DNA from: Rhizoclosmatium globosum
Taxonomy: Eukaryota; Chytridiomycota; Chytridiomycetes; Chytridiales; Chytriomycetaceae
Direction of reading: 5' to 3'
DNA: 64,000 nucleotides
Assembly (NCBI GenBank): GCA_002104985.1
Contig: MCGO01000002.1
Coordinates: 62,001-126,000 of the forward strand
Shown: one piece after another, positions 1,621-41,683 of the stretch
How the letters are laid out: each line of letters begins with the position of its first letter
Numbering within the stretch: the stretch's first letter is position 1
Notes under the pieces: generated by a model
Databases searched by the model: none
What the model was told of the DNA's origin: nothing
Seen by the model: the letters and a program-made list of their open reading frames with translations, nothing else
Program-made: the position numbers and the translations under genes

Positions 1621-3834
1621 TTAATCTGCTTTTGGCTCTCTCAATGGAGCATATGCCGTACGATCAGCTGCAAGAGCACACCTGAACAACAGCAAAATCA
1701 CTCCTCCCAGGAGAATGATGGTCAGCAGAGGATGCGCCTTAACAAACGTCTAGATGTTGAAGAAAAGTTAGAATAAATAAATGGAAACAGACAGAACACT
1801 CACTGCGAAAGGCATCGTCCATCGCTGTATCATCTTATATCCCCCAACTCCACCATTAGCATGCTTCCCAACCAATTTACCCTTTATCACAAGATCCAAA
1901 TTCTCCAATACCTTATCCCGACTTCCAAACTCCAAAGCCTTCTGATCCACTCCAACATCATAAAACAAATCCTCCTTCGAATCAACCACAACCAACAACG
2001 GGAACTTTGCCGCCTTCACATCAACCCCAAACGCACGCTGCACATAATCCCCTTTCTGCAAGACATCAATCCACGCAAAAACAACCTTCTCCTTCTTCTC
2101 GTCCCAATCCCCTTTCACAAGCGAAACATCATCATCCTTCGAATCCTCCCCACTCTGCCCATTCCACTTCTTCCCCGCCTCCCTCAACACATCAACCATC
2201 GTTTTCTTACTCACCTCATCAGACCCCTTCACAAGCCCGAGAACAACCGTATTCACACCATCCATAATTTTCCTCGACGTAGTCTCATCAAGTTTCATCA
2301 ACACAGCGCGAGCGTGCTTCAAGATCCAGTCGCGGACGTTATTCCGCTGTGCATCGGTTTTCAGGTCCATTGTAGCTTGGAAGACCCGTGTGTCTTTGTG
2401 TCCACGTTCGCCCTGAGAAATCAGGAGGACGGGGAATTTCGTGGAGGCGGGGAGTGTGGGGAAGAGTTTGAGGGCTTCAGGGCCTTCGGGGCATACATTG
2501 ATTTCGTGGAGGTGTGTGATTGTTGCTGAGACTTTCGCGAATTGCTCGAGGTGGGTGAGGGGGGTTGTTTTGTGGTCGTAGAGGTAGAAGACGGATGGGT
2601 TTGTGGATGTGAGAAGGACGGTGTTGATTTCGTCTGGAATAACGGGTTTGAATGCGGGTCTGTGAGGGTGAGGGTTGAATGGTTTAAGTTATAATATCGT
2701 ATGAATGAAGAATACTTACTTTGAATACTGCTTCGCAAACACCATCAGATTCTCTTTTGTACGTACACCTTGGAATTGGTCTTCCAGGTTTGTTCCAACG
2801 TGCATAACTGTGGGATACATTTGGATATCATATTTCTTGCAGAGGTCCATTTCAACAGTGCAGTCAACCTCCCCAACATTCATCGCTCCTTTCAAATCTT
2901 TTGCAATTTCCGTCCACATTGGTGCAAAGGATACACAGTGGTGGCAGTATGGCGAATAAAACTTGACGAACCACGAAGACTGATCGAGAAGAGAACCAAT
3001 ATTCTTCGAATTGATTGGAACTGATTTACCATCTGGGTTGATTTTACTTGAAGAATCACTTGATAAAAGCAGACCGGCTCTGGCAATAGCCTCAGCTTGC
3101 TTCATTGCCTTTGCCCCTTCACCATGTTGTGTTTTGATCCAAGAGTCGACCCATGGCTCAATGAGTTTGATTTCATCGTCTCCTTCGTATTCTTTTGTGA
3201 ACTTCCCGTCTTTGTAGCTGTTGTTGGTTGGTTATAGTTGTTTGTGTGTTGTGGAGTCAGTGAAGGGTGTCATGCTCATGATTGGGACAGCTTACATTCG
3301 AATAGTAGGATAGAATTTGAGAGCAGGTTGGACATTCAGGCAAATCTCTGCAAGTAGTGCGTTCGTTAGAGTCATAATGAGCAGACCCCATTTGAATCAA
3401 CGTACCCTTGAGAGCCGTGCATTCAATCTTTGCCAGCTTGAGGCCAATAGTATTAAAGTCCTTCTCCCTCCGTTGTTGAAACTTGAGGAACTCCGGAGTG
3501 AGTCTGTGCATTAATACCTTGTTAGCACTGAGTAACTGGAACCAACCAAACAACCAAACAACCAAACAAAACAAACCCACTTTTGACAGTGCGGACACTT
3601 GACCGAACCAAAGAAAAGAATCCAGTCGCCGCCGCCAACAACTTTGTGATTGACAAACTCGGCCGCGCTCAAGTGGCGAATGTGGACATCGGCGGCATCG
3701 GCGGCGGCTTTGACCGCGGCTTCGGCGGCACTTAGGCTTGGAATTGGGTCGGAGGTTGAATTGACCGGGTGCCCGAACACGTGGCTCAGCGTCACAGCGA
3801 GAACGAGGACGAGTTGGATCAAGGGCGGCTGCAT
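1621..3834 (-). CDS. PDI-like transmembrane protein with two thioredoxin domains
   Basis: Six exons read on the minus strand (3834-3581, 3503-3406, 3347-3296, 3217-2720, 2659-1804, 1749-1621) encode 628 aa. Residues 1 to about 21 are a signal peptide. Thioredoxin domain 1 carries the active site C-P-H-C at 80-83 and the cis-Pro segment ALKFYPTIR. Domain 2 carries C-H-H-C at 226-229 and the cis-Pro segment IQMYPTVM. A weaker third thioredoxin-like region without CxxC follows. The last exon encodes a membrane segment (about 593-610) and a short basic tail without KDEL. This layout fits ER membrane oxidoreductases related to TMX/EPS1 that act on disulfides or ERAD substrates. That role is inferred from the family. 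The first intron holds an AAC(C/A)-rich simple repeat at about 3541-3575. It is tail-to-head with the next minus gene, 13 bp apart. Confidence 0.82.
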
Positions 3835-35358: not shown

Positions 35359-37158
35359 TCACTCTGGAACAGGTCCACAGCGATCAATGTTTCGCTGGTC
35401 AACACGCTCTTTCATACGATCTTGGCGATTCAAAAACTGGTTGACATTCATACCGTGCATCATTGGCCACATTTCATCAATCGGAGTTGGATGCATACGG
35501 TAACAAGGATCATCATGGGTGACATTTACAGGAGCGCCCTTAACCCTTTGGTAAGGCACCCTTTCCGTAAGTGGGTGATATCTCTTGATTGTTCCATCAG
35601 CACATTCCGTTTCCGCATAAGATCTGTAAACAAATCGAATTGGACACTCAGGTGGAACAGTCACAGTCTTGTTGCCAGATTCCAAGAGCGTAATTGTAGT
35701 CGAGTTATCGGAATTAACTGAAGTCAAGTACCACACATCGTTGTCAGTAGCGTTGGATGAACCAAGTCCGTCGCGCTTTGTTCCGAACGAAAGTTTGACC
35801 TTGACCAAACTCTGGAACATTGTGTAAACCCAAGTATCGTCGATAGAAGTCGTTGGTACAGTCGTTGGGTTAGATCCGGGAATCACTCCGTCCCATACAG
35901 GGCACGTGATTGCAGGCATTGGAAGATCTCCGCCGCTTTGAGAGTACGTGTAACAGAGTGTACCTCCTTGTGTATCAAGCATTTGAGCGACTGTAACTTG
36001 CCAAGAGTCGACCTGCATTGATGGATTTGCAGTGCCACCGTTTGGAGCAATGGGGTCATTGGCAGTGATTGGTCCTTCGTAATCGTACTTGAATGCTGGA
36101 CAACGAGATTGCCATCTCCACCAGACCTATTGATGAAGAATGCTGTCAATGAAATTGTTGTTCGAATATGATCCTGAATCTTGACCGAACCTTATCAACG
36201 AACGCATGATGCAACCAGAAAATGGGATCGTTTGGGGAAATCGAGGGGTTTGCCATATCACAGGTATGTAAGTCGCCTCCAAACGTGTTGTGTCCACCTT
36301 TCAATTGATAATGATGTTATAATCCTTTTAGTATCCATAATTTCCAACTTACTTGCATGGAATCCCACAAAATCATCGTTACGATCACTAGCGGGAACGA
36401 GAATATCTCCTCTAAATGCTGCATCTGTAAACAAACCCAACGTTATAACTTGAATGATAAACACACCCAACAAACTCACAACTCATAGCCGCATTTCTAG
36501 AATTAATTTCTTCCGCAGGCGTCATAACCGACCCCACAGTTCCACACCGTCTCAAACACTGCGTGGAATCGTGCATTCCATACGAGTACTGCACAGAAAC
36601 AGAATCCAACACAGCAGTCTGAAACCCAGCAAGTCCACCATCCAACACACAATTGTACGGATTATTGTTTGTCGGCGAGCCAAAGTACGTCCAAACATCT
36701 TGTTTGTCCCAATCTTGGTTATGGGCGGACCAGTCCCAATAAGGCACACCACCTTGCCAACCAACTGATTGCATGCCTTGTTCGAACTTCCACATCATGG
36801 CGCGGTGGTATGGATAGAACTCGGCGGATCCGTGGGCCCATGGTGAGGCGAGTGCGTGACTGAGACATGTGATATGGTTAGGGTTGAGGGGTTCAGCTGA
36901 TACGCAATGTAGAATGTGATTACTGAATGCATGGGGAACTTACATAATTGTAAAGTCGTAGAGCGACATAACAGTTGGATCTATGGACTGGACGGGTTGC
37001 TGTTGTGGGCGGGCTGCGAGTCTCTTGATACAGTCAATGAACAGTTGTTTCTTGTCTGCCGAAAGAGTGGACCATTCTGGTCTCACGACTGGATTGGTAC
37101 ATTGCTGTGCCAAGGCGAGAGTCGCTGAGAGAGCGGCGACCAGAAGTCCAAGAAGCAT
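35359..37158 (-). CDS. Secreted tyrosinase B
   Basis: Five exons (37158-36944, 36859-36482 or nearby, 36424-36353, 36297-36191, 36126-35359) encode 513 aa. First-exon length and the last intron position match tyrosinase A; one extra intron splits the CuB region. A signal peptide ends near Ala-Gln-Gln. The CuA ligands are in IIHALASPWAHGSAEFYPYH and the CuB ligands in GFHASGGHNTF and NDPIFWLHHAFVDKVWWRW. It lacks the 120-residue low-complexity insert of paralogue A. The C-terminus keeps the shared segment VNVTHDDPCYRMHPTPIDE. The start codon lies only 34 bp from the left end of an inserted transposon, so its native promoter has been displaced. The gene itself is intact. Confidence 0.87.
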
Positions 37159-37192
37159 CTCCAGATTTCAATAATGAAAATTTCTACTATTA

Positions 37193-37333
37193 CAGCAAGT
37201 TGCAAAACTGTTGGTTTTTCCCAAAAAAACACATTGCCTCGAGTTTACCTTCCGCTGCTGCCGCCGCTGCCACGGTATAGTCCCCGCCCATCCCTTTACA
37301 CCAAACTCATGGCCTAATCATAGTCATCAGTTT
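37193..37333 (+). repeat. Left terminal inverted repeat of the two-gene transposon
   Basis: 141 bp matching the reverse complement of 39957-40097 except at two positions. It contains a run of seven A and a GC-rich CCGCTGCTGCCGCCGCTGCC stretch. The transposase ATG lies 16 bp beyond its inner edge, so the repeat probably also serves as promoter. Confidence 0.95.
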
Positions 37334-37348
37334 TATTGACTCTCAGCT

Positions 37349-38492
37349 ATGGGACATAAGCGGATCACCTCGCGGATCAGAGAACTGGTCATCAACAAGC
37401 ACCTTGCAGGCCTAGACCCAGATGTGATCAAGGAACATCTGGAAGTATCTCTCACATCCATCAAACGAATTGTGGCTCTGTGGCAACATACTGGAAGCTC
37501 CAACACAACGCAGAACTTCTCTGGCAGACCACGCAGTATCAGCCAAGCAGCTCGAACAGTGAGTGCATCCAACCTGACATTATATACATCATATAACAAC
37601 CTCTTCAAAGTACATTATCACGAGATTGAGAGCTGTCCCCTCTTTGTATCTTGCTGAGCTTGCAGCCTTGGTATCAGAGGCCTTTGCCACGGAAATCAAC
37701 ATTTACACTCTACAACGGGAACTCTTGCGAATGGGTATCTCACACAAGAAGGTATGATGTTGTTGTATGTACTTTCACTCACATGTCTTATCGAAGCTTT
37801 CCAAGAAAGCTCAGGAACGTAATGAATACTGCTGGTTTCACTATTCGTATTGCCGGATATCAATCCAATCAACTTGTGTTTGTAGATGAGAGCAGCAATA
37901 ATCGGAAAATAGTGCAACGTTCATATGGTTGGGCACTCACTGGAGAACGGGCTTACGAGGACAGTGAGTTTGTAAGAGGCACAAGGTGTACTCTGATTGG
38001 AGCTTGTGTCCCTGAAGGCTTATTGGCGTATGATGTCCAAGAGGGTGGCCGGAATGGTAATGAGTTCACAGATTGGGTCGAGGACGAGCTTGTGAGTCTT
38101 AGGCAATAATCCTCATCTTATACGTTTGTTTTGTTTTAGTTACCAAAAATGAATGCCTACCCAGCGCCTCGTAGTGTTCTTGTTCTTGATAACTGCTCCA
38201 TTCACAAACAAGATCGATTGCAAAATATTTGTGATGAGCATAGTGTTATTTTGATCTTCCTCCCTCTGTATTCGCCAGATTTCAATCCTGTGAGTGTTGT
38301 AACTTGTTTTACTTGATATTGAGGTTGTTCCAGATAGAGCAATGCTTTTCTTGGATCAAGGCTTGGCTGAGAAAGAATAGAGACTGGGTTGACAATCAAG
38401 AGGATCCAGTGACAGCTATTGAAGGTGCATGTATGAGTCTAGATTCTCGTATTGCTTGTGGCGCTTTCAAACATTGTGGGTATTCTTTATAA
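37349..38492 (+). CDS. DD34E transposase (Tc1/mariner/IS630 superfamily)
   Basis: Exons 37349-37558, 37611-37751, about 37797-38091, 38140-38289 and 38334-38492. The N-terminus has a helix-turn-helix (IRELVINKHLAGLDPDVIKE, then VSLTSIKRIVALW) and a GRPR linker. Catalytic residues are Asp in LVFVDES, Asp in VLDNCSIH and Glu in SPDFNPIEQCF, the last two separated by 34 residues. In the third exon, with the acceptor at 37796, conserved family residues (LSKKAQERNE) run into a different frame from the catalytic Asp, so a one-base shift near 37830 is suspected. An alternative acceptor about 14 bp downstream (ending aagaaag) restores an uninterrupted frame at the cost of that motif. The protein would cut and paste its own element at TA sites. 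Confidence 0.85.
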
Positions 38493-38545
38493 ACTGAATA
38501 AAGCTATATCAAATGAACTAATCATGTACAACTCCTATCACAATT

Positions 38546-39923
38546 TCACAAAACAACTCTTCTTTGCTCAGACAAATTTACCTCAATGTTACCTCCACTT
38601 GGAAAGACAAGAGACAAGTCTTGATTGAAGCCAATCTGCCTTCTTGCCCCTTCAACTGAATATGCCGCCTCAAGTCGCAACGTTGTTCCATCCTCCCTGG
38701 TATAAACACAGCCACTGCAGGGATAATCGAACTCGTTCATCATTGAGGCAAGAGTTGTTCCAGGAATCACATTGACAGCATCCACTATTGCATGGCCATG
38801 AAAGTAGAGAGACACAATCAATGGTTGACATGTCAACGTAGAAGATGCACGGGAAATTGTTTGTGGTGGTAGTTGCGATTGGAAACTTGCAGAATTGGCG
38901 GTGTTATCAAGATTTGATGATGCTTTAGAGAGAGGCTTCTTCCTCTTTGGATCAAAGAGAGGGAGATTAGGGGGAGAATCCAAGGTCACGTTCAACCTTT
39001 CGCTCCGCCAAGTGAAAAGCCCACTGATCATAATGCCCAAACTCTAATTCAAGTGTTCCGCTTTCAAGGAGTATTTTGTTGGATGGGTACTTGTTCCTCA
39101 ATTTCATGACAAAATTGCTCACATTCTCATTGTCGTTGATACTCGACCCTCTCCCCTTCTTTCTACTGTCTGCGTCCTTCCCTCCACGTGCCTCATACAC
39201 AATTAGAGAGCAGCTCAACTTGCCATTTGGTTTTCGTTGAAATGGCGCAAACAGTTCATCCAGATCACTCAAAACACAAATTTCAATAACCGGCCCTGTA
39301 GAGAACGTTTTCCCATTCAACCCATTCTTGAATGGCTTCCAAGAATCACTTGATTCAGCCTTGACTCGAATCAACTCAATGATTTCGTTGAGACTAGTTG
39401 GACGAGAGGTGATTTTAATAGTGATTGACGGAACAGTAGGCTTCTGTCCAATTCCAGGAAGAAGAGTAACAGGAATAGACATTGGAGACCAGTAGTTTTC
39501 CTCGTCGTCTGAATAGTCTGCTTGATTGTCAAAGTCGCGGTCAGAACCAACTGGAGCACCAGTAATAGGTTGCGGATTGGTGCGAACTCGACCTGGCTGC
39601 ACTTCCTTGTCAGCTGTACGCTTGCGTTTTGGAGGTTTGCGGAGTTCTTTGAGTTGTTCCTTGCAATCAATGCAGAGCTTTGTAGAATCACCAACAGTGA
39701 GTCCTAGACTCTGGAAATCGTCAATCCCAAGCTCAGTGGTGCCAGAAAGCCAGTGAAGATCCAATTCAGTCAGGCGTTGGACACCCTCCACCTTGTCCTT
39801 GTCAATCGGAATCGTGTTGTCGCATTTGCAGGCATCATCTTTGTAGAGTAGATCGCATTTGCCATTTATTGATTTGGTGCAGCGAATGCAGTGCCCACAG
39901 ATGTCAGTTGCACCGTTGCCCAT
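38546..39923 (-). CDS. Cys-rich zinc-cluster protein encoded in the transposon
   Basis: Two exons (39923-38997 and 38944-38546) encode 441 aa. The 52-bp intron has donor gttgaa, a CTAAT branch-like site and a pyrimidine tract, and it restores phase exactly. The N-terminus holds a Cys cluster (C9, C12, C15, C23, C32, C34: CGHCIRC, then CKC). A second CxxC pair (KLCIDCKEQL) lies near residue 85. Together they likely bind zinc and possibly the terminal repeats. A basic stretch RKPPKRKR, a nuclear-signal look-alike, precedes a folded-looking central region with few repeats. I do not recognise any domain. It could assist transposition or bind DNA (inference from position only). The start codon lies about 34 bp inside the right terminal repeat, mirroring the transposase. 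Confidence 0.75.
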
Positions 39924-39956
39924 ATGTCTGGCTGCCTTATGCTTGGGAGTAAACAG

Positions 39957-40097
39957 AAACTGATGACTATGATAAGGCCATGAGTTTGGTGTAAAGGGAT
40001 GGGCGGGGACTATACCGTGGCAGCGGTGGCAGCAGCGGAAGGTAAACTCGAGGCAATGTGTTTTTTTGGGAAAAACCAACAGTTTTGCAACTTGCTG
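39957..40097 (-). repeat. Right terminal inverted repeat of the two-gene transposon
   Basis: 141 bp, inverted copy of 37193-37333 (139 of 141 positions equal by eye). Its inner edge is about 34 bp from the start codon of the Cys-rich protein, suggesting that both genes are driven by near-identical promoters in the two repeats. Confidence 0.95.
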
Positions 40098-40137
40098 TAA
40101 ATATTTCAAAGAGGAAGAACATTGCCACAACTCACTG

Positions 40138-41683
40138 ATGGCTCACCCAATGCGAAAGCTATATACCCTAACGTACAAGTTGCGCATCGTCGATGAAGTG
40201 TGAGCACTCTCTGCATCGCTTGTTGCCTCTGCTCCACACCGGAAGATTCGCAGTGGTTCTCTTACTGCTGTTGCTACTAAACATTCCCTCAACAGGTCGA
40301 TGCTGTCCAAGTGGGTGCGATCGGTTGGAACCATCAAAGACGAATCTATCAAGCGAGGTGGGAAGTATCTGCACTGTGGATGGGAAAGTGTGATGGTGGG
40401 TGGTGGAAGGAAGGAACACAGTCAGAGCCCCTCCCTCTCTCTCCCACATTAGCGTAGATTTTGATGGCCACCCCTCTATACTCTCTTCTTCCCTTCTCTA
40501 TGGTACGCTGTATGTTCCTGGAGGAGGAAGTGAAGCTGGTTGGACTGGTGGCGGACCAGAGAAACCGTGGATACGCAGTGTCACCGGCAGACTTGCGGGA
40601 GTGGATGTTGGCATACGTGAAGGATCCCTTGAGTTTATTGGCTGATGCAGCGCTGGGGGTTGGAACAGAACAGCGTAGAAATACCTTCACCGCATCATCC
40701 TGTTGGTGTACAGGATTCATGGAGCGTTATAGACTGAGCATCAGAGCGAGTACTACAACCAGAACTTGTGGGTTGTTGGACCATAGCGACACTCCACCCC
40801 TCCCTCTGCCCATTCTCTTCTCCTCCTTCATCAACCAAACCACACAAAACAAACCAAAAACAAATAAAACCAAAATAAAACAAACAAAAACATTTTTTTT
40901 ACTCATGTTTCGTCTTTTGTGGCTGGTACTGATCCAAAGATCGCTGCCTTTGATGATTTCATTTACAGGCAACAAACGAATGGTCTCACTGTCAAAGATA
41001 TTTACAACTTTGATCAAACTAGACTCTACTTTGATATGTCGCTCAAAAAGACAGTGCATTGGAAAGGATCGACAAATGTAATCATCAAGAATACTGGAAA
41101 CGAGTCGACTGGATTTTCGGTTGGATTGACATGTCGCGGGGATGGACATCGACTTCCTCCATTAGCTGTCTTTAAGGGTGCAAGAACTGGTCGACTGGCT
41201 AAAACGGTGCCTGCTCAAGTCAATGCTCTTGGAGTTGGTGTTCAAGTTTCATTTCAACAAAATGCATGGTTTGACAGCGACGTGATTCTGAAGGAGTGCA
41301 TTCCTCAATTTAAATCTGAAAATTCTGGAAGAAAGGTGATGATGGTGTTGGACAGTTACAAAGCTCACCTGACTCAACCAGTGAAAGGTGCATTCAAGAA
41401 TGCTGCAATAATCCCCGCTGTGATTCCTGGTGGATACACGTCAAAACTTCAGCCACTAGATATTGGAATCATCAAACCTTTCAAGGATGGAATTCGGCAA
41501 AGGTGGACAGTTTGGATACGGAGTTCCATCACAGATGCGAGTGAGTTGAACGCAGACGGCAGAAGAAAGCAGCCAAGTCACGCAATTATTTGTAGTTGGA
41601 TTAGTAGTGCTTGGAATGATGTGGATAACAGTGTGTTTGAAGCTGCTTTAAGGAAAGGGCTTTGGGCAAGAAGAGCCATATAA
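40138..41683 (+). CDS. Pogo/Tigger-like DDE transposase
   Basis: Exon 1 (40138-40199) and exon 2 (from 40254) encode a CENP-B/psq-type helix-turn-helix (KLYTLTYKLRIVDEV, then LNRSMLSKWVRSV). A middle part near 40461-40770 carries a Tc5/CENP-B second HTH (EEEVKLVGLVADQRNRGYAV, then WCTGFMERYRLSIRA). The last long exon, from about 40920 to 41683, holds the DDE catalytic domain: IYNFDQTRLYFDM, VLDSYKAHLTQ and IPGGYTSKLQPLDIGIIKPFK. The intron between the second HTH and the catalytic domain is A- and C-rich and its exact ends are unclear. No stop is seen in the catalytic exon, so the protein may be active. Terminal repeats were not found by eye. Its 5' end lies only 40 bp from the neighbouring element's TA, so the two insertions may be nested. 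Confidence 0.72.

Follow-up and report, generated by a model that had tools for sequence, protein, structure and literature searches.

Tc1/mariner elements are the textbook case of one-gene, self-sufficient transposons, and a branch in which a second gene has long been conserved and travels with the transposase would differ from them. Does the transposon at 37–40 kb of the window (the whole 64,000-nucleotide stretch of Rhizoclosmatium globosum DNA analysed here) belong to such a branch, and what would its second gene do?

The window holds a degraded element with two convergent genes

We found a TA-inserted unit with long inverted repeats, containing an intron-bearing transposase gene and a convergent second gene, hereafter gene 2 (Table 1). 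A preliminary description of this DNA had proposed a TA-flanked element with near-identical long repeats, and the arms indeed differ at only 2 of 144 positions, with a TA on both sides. The transposase gene lies on the forward strand and gene 2, also correctly predicted, on the reverse strand, tail to tail within the arms. Their ATGs (37349 and 39923) stand 15 bp and 33 bp inside the arms, close to the 16 and about 34 bp given previously. Assignment of the transposase to the DD34E class agrees with the exon pieces in the window and with the domain match and D–E spacing of its relatives (see below).

Table 1. Coordinates of the two-gene element, numbered from the first nucleotide of the window
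Feature	Position	Strand	Remarks
Left terminal inverted repeat	37190..37333	+	144 nt, outer bases TTACAGC, 2 mismatches vs right arm
TA target, left end	37191-37192
Transposase exon 1, HTH region	37349..37558	+	ATG 37349; aligned to C223 exon 1
Transposase exon 2	37611..37751	+
Transposase exon 3, first catalytic D (FVDES)	37797..38091	+	Lacks 5 nt near 37.83 kb, which breaks the frame
Transposase exon 4, second catalytic D (LDNCSIH)	38140..38289	+
Transposase exon 5, catalytic E (IEQCF), stop	38334..38492	+
Gene 2 C-terminal stretch, second frame	38546..38998	-	150 aa; 44% identity with C223
Gene 2 first open stretch	38967..39923	-	318 aa, Cys-rich N-terminus + core
Right terminal inverted repeat	39957..40100	-	144 nt
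TA target, right end	40098-40099

Is this copy intact, as had been implied? Both genes turned out to be frameshifted relative to C223, C257 and C407, three related copies elsewhere in the genome. The transposase gene lacks 5 nt near 37.83 kb compared with all three, after which the frame hits a stop, a deletion that had been overlooked. In gene 2 the frame shifts by 1 nt near 38.99 kb, through an extra base that is absent from the same three copies. On either side of this shift the window gene aligns with C223 gene 2, at 45% identity over 316 codons in the first part and 44% over 150 codons in the C-terminal part, which is read in the other frame.

The preliminary description had joined these parts by splicing into a 441-aa product, which requires removal of a 52-nt GT..AG stretch, 38945-38996 (the product has 440 aa if counting starts at codon 2). 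Such an "intron" would remove a stretch that is coding in C223, where it holds a conserved PPN..FDP motif; a similar PP...FDP stretch occurs in C113. Five GT..AG choices restore a long frame, and none of the five keeps the PPNLPLFDP stretch. Because this stretch codes in C223 with a conserved motif and the extra base is missing from C257, C407 and C223, a single-base frameshift is simpler than an intron. With both genes frameshifted, the window copy looks dead. It is nevertheless a real, if degraded, R. globosum member of a two-gene type within the known superfamily IS630-Tc1-mariner.

Both flanks contain further coding sequence. Beyond the right end lies a pogo-like transposase (40868-41683, + strand; Pfam DDE_1, 2.3e-20), and an ORF beginning MAHPMRKLYTL starts at 40138, about 40 bp past the end of the two-gene element; by eye, an ORF start of the form MAH...YTL also adjoins the element end in C223. 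The left flank (36940-37167, - strand) encodes the start of a secreted-looking protein, with the insertion just upstream of that start. We take this protein to be tyrosinase-like, a likeness for which a Pfam search gave no confirmation.

Gene 2 moves together with the arms

Is gene 2 a regular part of the element? We searched the R. globosum (Chytridiomycota) genome (56.9 Mb, 420 contigs) and found three more copies of the same lineage, lineage A, with both ends. Both genes are open in C223 (L034), which encodes a 318-aa transposase in 5 exons and a 494-aa gene 2 product in 1 exon, the latter an exact match to protein BCR33DRAFT_779865. They are also open in C113 (L037), a 3.56-kb element with arms of about 198 nt, encoding a 316-aa transposase in 4 exons and a 526-aa gene 2 product in 5 exons (four introns). 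The third, C371 (L038), repeats the C113 element at another site: the two have 3561 bp in common at 99.69% identity but no flanking sequence, and gene 2 of C371 contains one stop. When the C371 flanks were joined at one TA, a continuous 264-aa ORF resulted. Because the joined flanks read through, the thing that was inserted is the two-gene unit. The product of the split ORF (L038 2310-2798 and 6384-6869, - strand) resembles a GDSL-type lipase.

A TA is found at both ends of all four elements (the window, C223, C113 and C371). The arms measure about 198-203 nt in C113 and C371, and 43 nt at 86% identity were detected in C223. The C223 and C113 transposases are 35% identical (109/312 positions) and by eye have three phase-0 intron positions in common, out of 3 or 4 phase-0 introns in lineage A transposases; their gene 2 products are 25% identical (110/434). 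Copies lacking gene 2 had been named as what would argue against a two-gene lineage. None was seen among the lineage A copies with both ends found, all four of which keep both genes.

Other copies have decayed further. Tail-to-tail remains of both genes persist in C257, C407 and C365 (267 kb), and C101 shows a weak tail-to-tail pair, its match to gene 2 covering 25 residues at E 0.004. C235 retains an arm and the start of gene 2; C89, C124, C377 and C409 retain arms with little or nothing more, and C385 and C7 give weaker arm matches. The copies at C257 (L035) and C407 (L036) have the same flank, and therefore one relic seems to have been duplicated together with its surroundings.

Divergent lineages also carry a convergent partner

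Pfam DDE_3 gave 19 matches on the genome contigs, corresponding to 17 loci (two of the matches fall in C223 and two in C365). A convergent partner gene was present at 13 of these 17: C112, C223, C113, C371, C380, C365, C360, C13 (325 kb), C229, C334, C366 (71 kb), C82 and C90; C405, C177, C13:232k and C410 are left out of this count. At C82 and C90, the latter a fragment, the match covers only a C-terminal coiled-coil-like stretch (tblastn 5e-5 and 1e-3).

The C13 transposase is 26% and 28% identical to those of C223 and C113. A genome search with C13 gene 2 gave 20 matches at 12 loci, and at 11 of the 12 it faces a transposase of opposite orientation, tail to tail; the gap between the matched stretches ranges from none to about 150 bp, except at C229, where it is 283 bp. 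Only one of the 12, a fragment on C359, has no transposase match nearby. Among the partners of this group, C13 gene 2 matches those of C334 at 2e-11, C229 at 0.0018 and C82 at 0.006. Loci with both genes or their remains number 22, distributed over lineage A (8), lineage B (C380, C365:275k and C360) and lineage C (11, without C90), or 20 without the two weakest, C101 and C82. Because only the best candidates were scored in the genome search, all of these counts are lower bounds. The proposal of a two-gene lineage with a conserved partner has thus held, and more broadly than it was made, since divergent lineages also have a convergent partner.

Transposase relics without a gene 2 match also occur. 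Over the genome contigs, C13 gene 2 gave no match at ten transposase relic loci (C157, C231, C377:62k, C404, C192, C49, C352, C370, C399 and C229:7k). Reading the DNA directly, we saw no gene 2 beside the transposase relics C362 and C113:313k, and none was seen at small fragments on C368, C145 and C379. The C362 and C113:313k relics each consist of a transposase N-terminus with inverted repeats (L068 1156-1241 and 2053-2138; L048 949-1034 and 1846-1931), which align over about 88 columns at 77-78% identity.

Two loci have unusual surroundings. At C380 (L067), a direct repeat of about 43 bp (1006-1048 and 3213-3255) flanks the transposase and a truncated gene 2; inverted arms were looked for at this locus and none found. 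Beside the C90 element, a 564-aa ORF with Cys motifs (L069 3-1694, - strand) gave no Pfam match at E 0.1, and we take it to be possibly a LINE ORF1.

The transposases are DD34E enzymes with fungal relatives

DDE_3 matches the transposases of C223 at 1.2e-27 and C113 at 8e-24, and 34 residues separate the second D from the E in each of C223, C113 and C13. HTH_33 is above cut-off in C223 and C113, and HTH_23 in C113. By these features the elements fall within Tc1/mariner; the single transposase gene that is usual there, though not a strict criterion, does not describe the four lineage A copies with both ends.

How old is the pairing? Of 1179 candidates, 149 matched the transposase at E 0.001 or better. 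Among the best 120 of the 149, the nearest come from Rhizophagus irregularis (44-45% identity), followed, among named ones, by basidiomycetes. We built a tree of 26 rows, 23 hand-chosen among the relatives plus C223, C113 and C13, with a midpoint root. C113 groups with the two Rhizophagus rows (84/82), and C223 is the next to branch (89/98), both forks being below the support threshold; C13 forms a long branch that is not safely placed. If the tree is right, the ancestor of the C223, C113 and Rhizophagus elements probably had gene 2. With Rhizophagus transposases falling among two-gene ones, the pair of transposase and gene 2 may be old.

Gene 2 is under constraint and has a shared core

Does selection act on gene 2? 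Between the window and C223, pN was below pS in both stretches of gene 2 (0.378 and 0.743 over 316 codons; 0.418 and 0.654 over 150 codons in the C-terminal stretch), in line with the dN/dS below 1 that had been suggested as a check. The corresponding values for the transposase pieces were 0.231 and 0.785 over 294 codons, and gene 2 of C223 and C113 is too diverged for use (pN 0.563, pS 0.699). Because silent sites are near saturation, these estimates are rough and give the direction only, which alone is safe: they point to purifying selection on gene 2 and, stronger, on the transposase.

What kind of protein does gene 2 encode? No Pfam family matched the C223, window or C113 proteins at E 1 or better, and the PDB held no sequence relative of C223 gene 2. 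Outside R. globosum, neither a single sequence nor a three-row profile found a relative among about 5.8 billion proteins, with the 7995 best word-sharing candidates scored each time. IMG/VR scans returned no relative of gene 2 and none of a Rhizophagus transposase. Five cysteines are identical in all three lineage A sequences (C14, C17, C34, C36 and C86 in C223 numbering), and basic stretches are present that we take to resemble nuclear signals.

Lineages A and C have a core in common, L+..Y ... W ... PP ... F. Its profile score, 26.8, was reached by none of 200 column shuffles (maximum 19.0), in a profile whose C229 row joins two frames; for the same match, HH-suite gave a probability of only 11.8%, with E 0.0025 in one comparison. 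Whole-length profile comparison gave E 0.025, with the C229 row in the wrong frame. In lineage B (C380) the core motif can be seen by eye, and its score was reached by 1 of 100 shuffles in the comparison with A and by 6 of 100 in that with C, so that kinship of its core to A and C is suggestive only. Some hypothetical proteins of mushroom fungi may have a similar W...PP core and a SAM-like end.

The C-termini differ between lineages. The structure model of C223 gene 2 is confident only at about residues 400-490, the last 90 or so, and the central region, at a mean pLDDT of 34.3, yielded no usable fold. Many of the 50 Foldseek rows for this model were beta-grasp domains (Ubl, UBX, RBD, PB1), staphylococcal superantigen-like proteins and others also appearing; none matched at E 0.001 or better, the best being 4.5e-3. 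These matches hint, weakly, that lineage A gene 2 ends in a beta-grasp-like part. In lineage B, SAM_1 is above cut-off in C380 gene 2, and the lineage C C-terminus looks coiled-coil-like by eye. Beta-grasp, SAM and coiled-coil modules often serve self-association, and we propose this role for the gene 2 C-terminus for that reason.

A probable accessory factor for transposition

What does gene 2 contribute? We give a probability of roughly 0.7 to the reading that the window element is a degraded two-gene IS630-Tc1-mariner (DD34E, DDE_3) cut-and-paste transposon whose gene 2 would aid or regulate the transposition complex. Each arm would act as the promoter of one gene, since twin promoters fit the anatomy, and the transposase would cut and join DNA. 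The gene 2 protein, most likely a nuclear accessory factor for transposition, would enter the nucleus, use its Cys-rich and core regions to bind DNA or the transposase, and self-associate by means of its C-terminal module. It would thereby help to assemble or regulate the transposition complex, like the accessory proteins of other two-gene DNA transposons.

A wider proposal is more tentative, and we lean slightly against it: a large fungal DD34E (DDE_3) clade may be truly two-component, its obligatory partner combining a core that is conserved with a self-association end that can be swapped between beta-grasp, SAM and coiled coil. The pair would then be older than the split between Chytridiomycota and Glomeromycotina, and would have escaped notice for want of an annotated domain in the partner's core.

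Alternatively, gene 2 could stand outside the transposition machinery and counter host silencing of the element, as VANC proteins do for plant Mutator-type elements. Consistent with this, gene 2 evolves faster than the transposase gene and its C-terminal module varies between lineages, as conflict with the host would lead one to expect, and it has nuclear-looking basic stretches. However, the constant tail-to-tail pairing and the common core fit a role in transposition at least as well, and we consider anti-silencing unlikely. A self-regulator that limits transposition is less likely again. Both genes would be read from near-identical arms, where a DNA-binding gene 2 product could compete, but the purifying selection seen on gene 2 would be expected of other functions as well.

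Could gene 2 be a mere passenger, acquired from the host in a single capture, which was the second condition named as arguing against a two-gene lineage? The C359 fragment without a transposase nearby would suit such an origin. Against it, the other 11 of 12 loci matched by C13 gene 2 have a transposase as partner, no intact copy standing alone appeared among the genome matches of these lower-bound searches, and database matches were R. globosum proteins only (7995 candidates scored per search); capture is therefore very improbable. That most Tc1/mariner elements are single-gene might suggest a one-gene element beside an unrelated neighbour with a chance ORF, an idea refuted by the C113/C371 pair, in which the arms enclose gene 2 and the whole has moved as one.

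An accessory role in transposition is thus the reading we prefer. Sequence comparison shows a partner gene kept across divergent DD34E lineages of one chytrid genome. Such a two-gene branch would let one test, within a single superfamily, why certain transposons depend on a partner, and it points to a role for proteins annotated as hypothetical in fungi. It also provides a rule for finding more of them: on the other strand, 3' of DDE_3 transposases.

Comparison with known two-gene transposons

The R. globosum elements resemble Tc1/mariner (IS630-Tc1-mariner) DD34E elements in their TA target, CAG-type ends, inverted repeats, HTH and DDE_3 domains and 34-residue spacing. They differ in having a second, convergent and conserved gene and, in lineage A, introns in the transposase gene. 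A transposase and a second protein between inverted repeats are also found in MuDR, En/Spm and PIF/Harbinger, and in MuDR the two genes converge and are transcribed from the arms. These systems have their own transposase families and target sizes, whereas the elements described here combine a DDE_3 transposase with a TA target, and gene 2 matches none of their domains.

Accessory genes have been described in Sola1-1_Ec32 of Ectocarpus and in giant KDZ elements; that of Sola1-1 lies on the strand opposite the transposase and is a predicted DNA methyltransferase (PMC12477816). These elements resemble those of R. globosum in having an accessory gene, in Sola1-1 likewise opposite the transposase, but belong to other superfamilies. 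Within Tc1/mariner, a fungal two-gene element appeared in none of the titles and abstract beginnings of a literature drawn mostly from outside subscription journals. Elements of this superfamily may hold additional ORFs (PMC7325037). The same source describes ciliate Tec/TBE elements with a DD34E transposase, arms of about 700 bp and three ORFs, one of the extra genes being on the other strand; the second ORF of Tec encodes a site-specific recombinase (PMC7325037). Tec/TBE differ from the R. globosum elements, which have two genes rather than three and a gene 2 without a Pfam match at E 1. With their DD34E transposase, long arms and extra gene on the other strand in common, the ciliate Tec/TBE elements are the closest precedents that we found.
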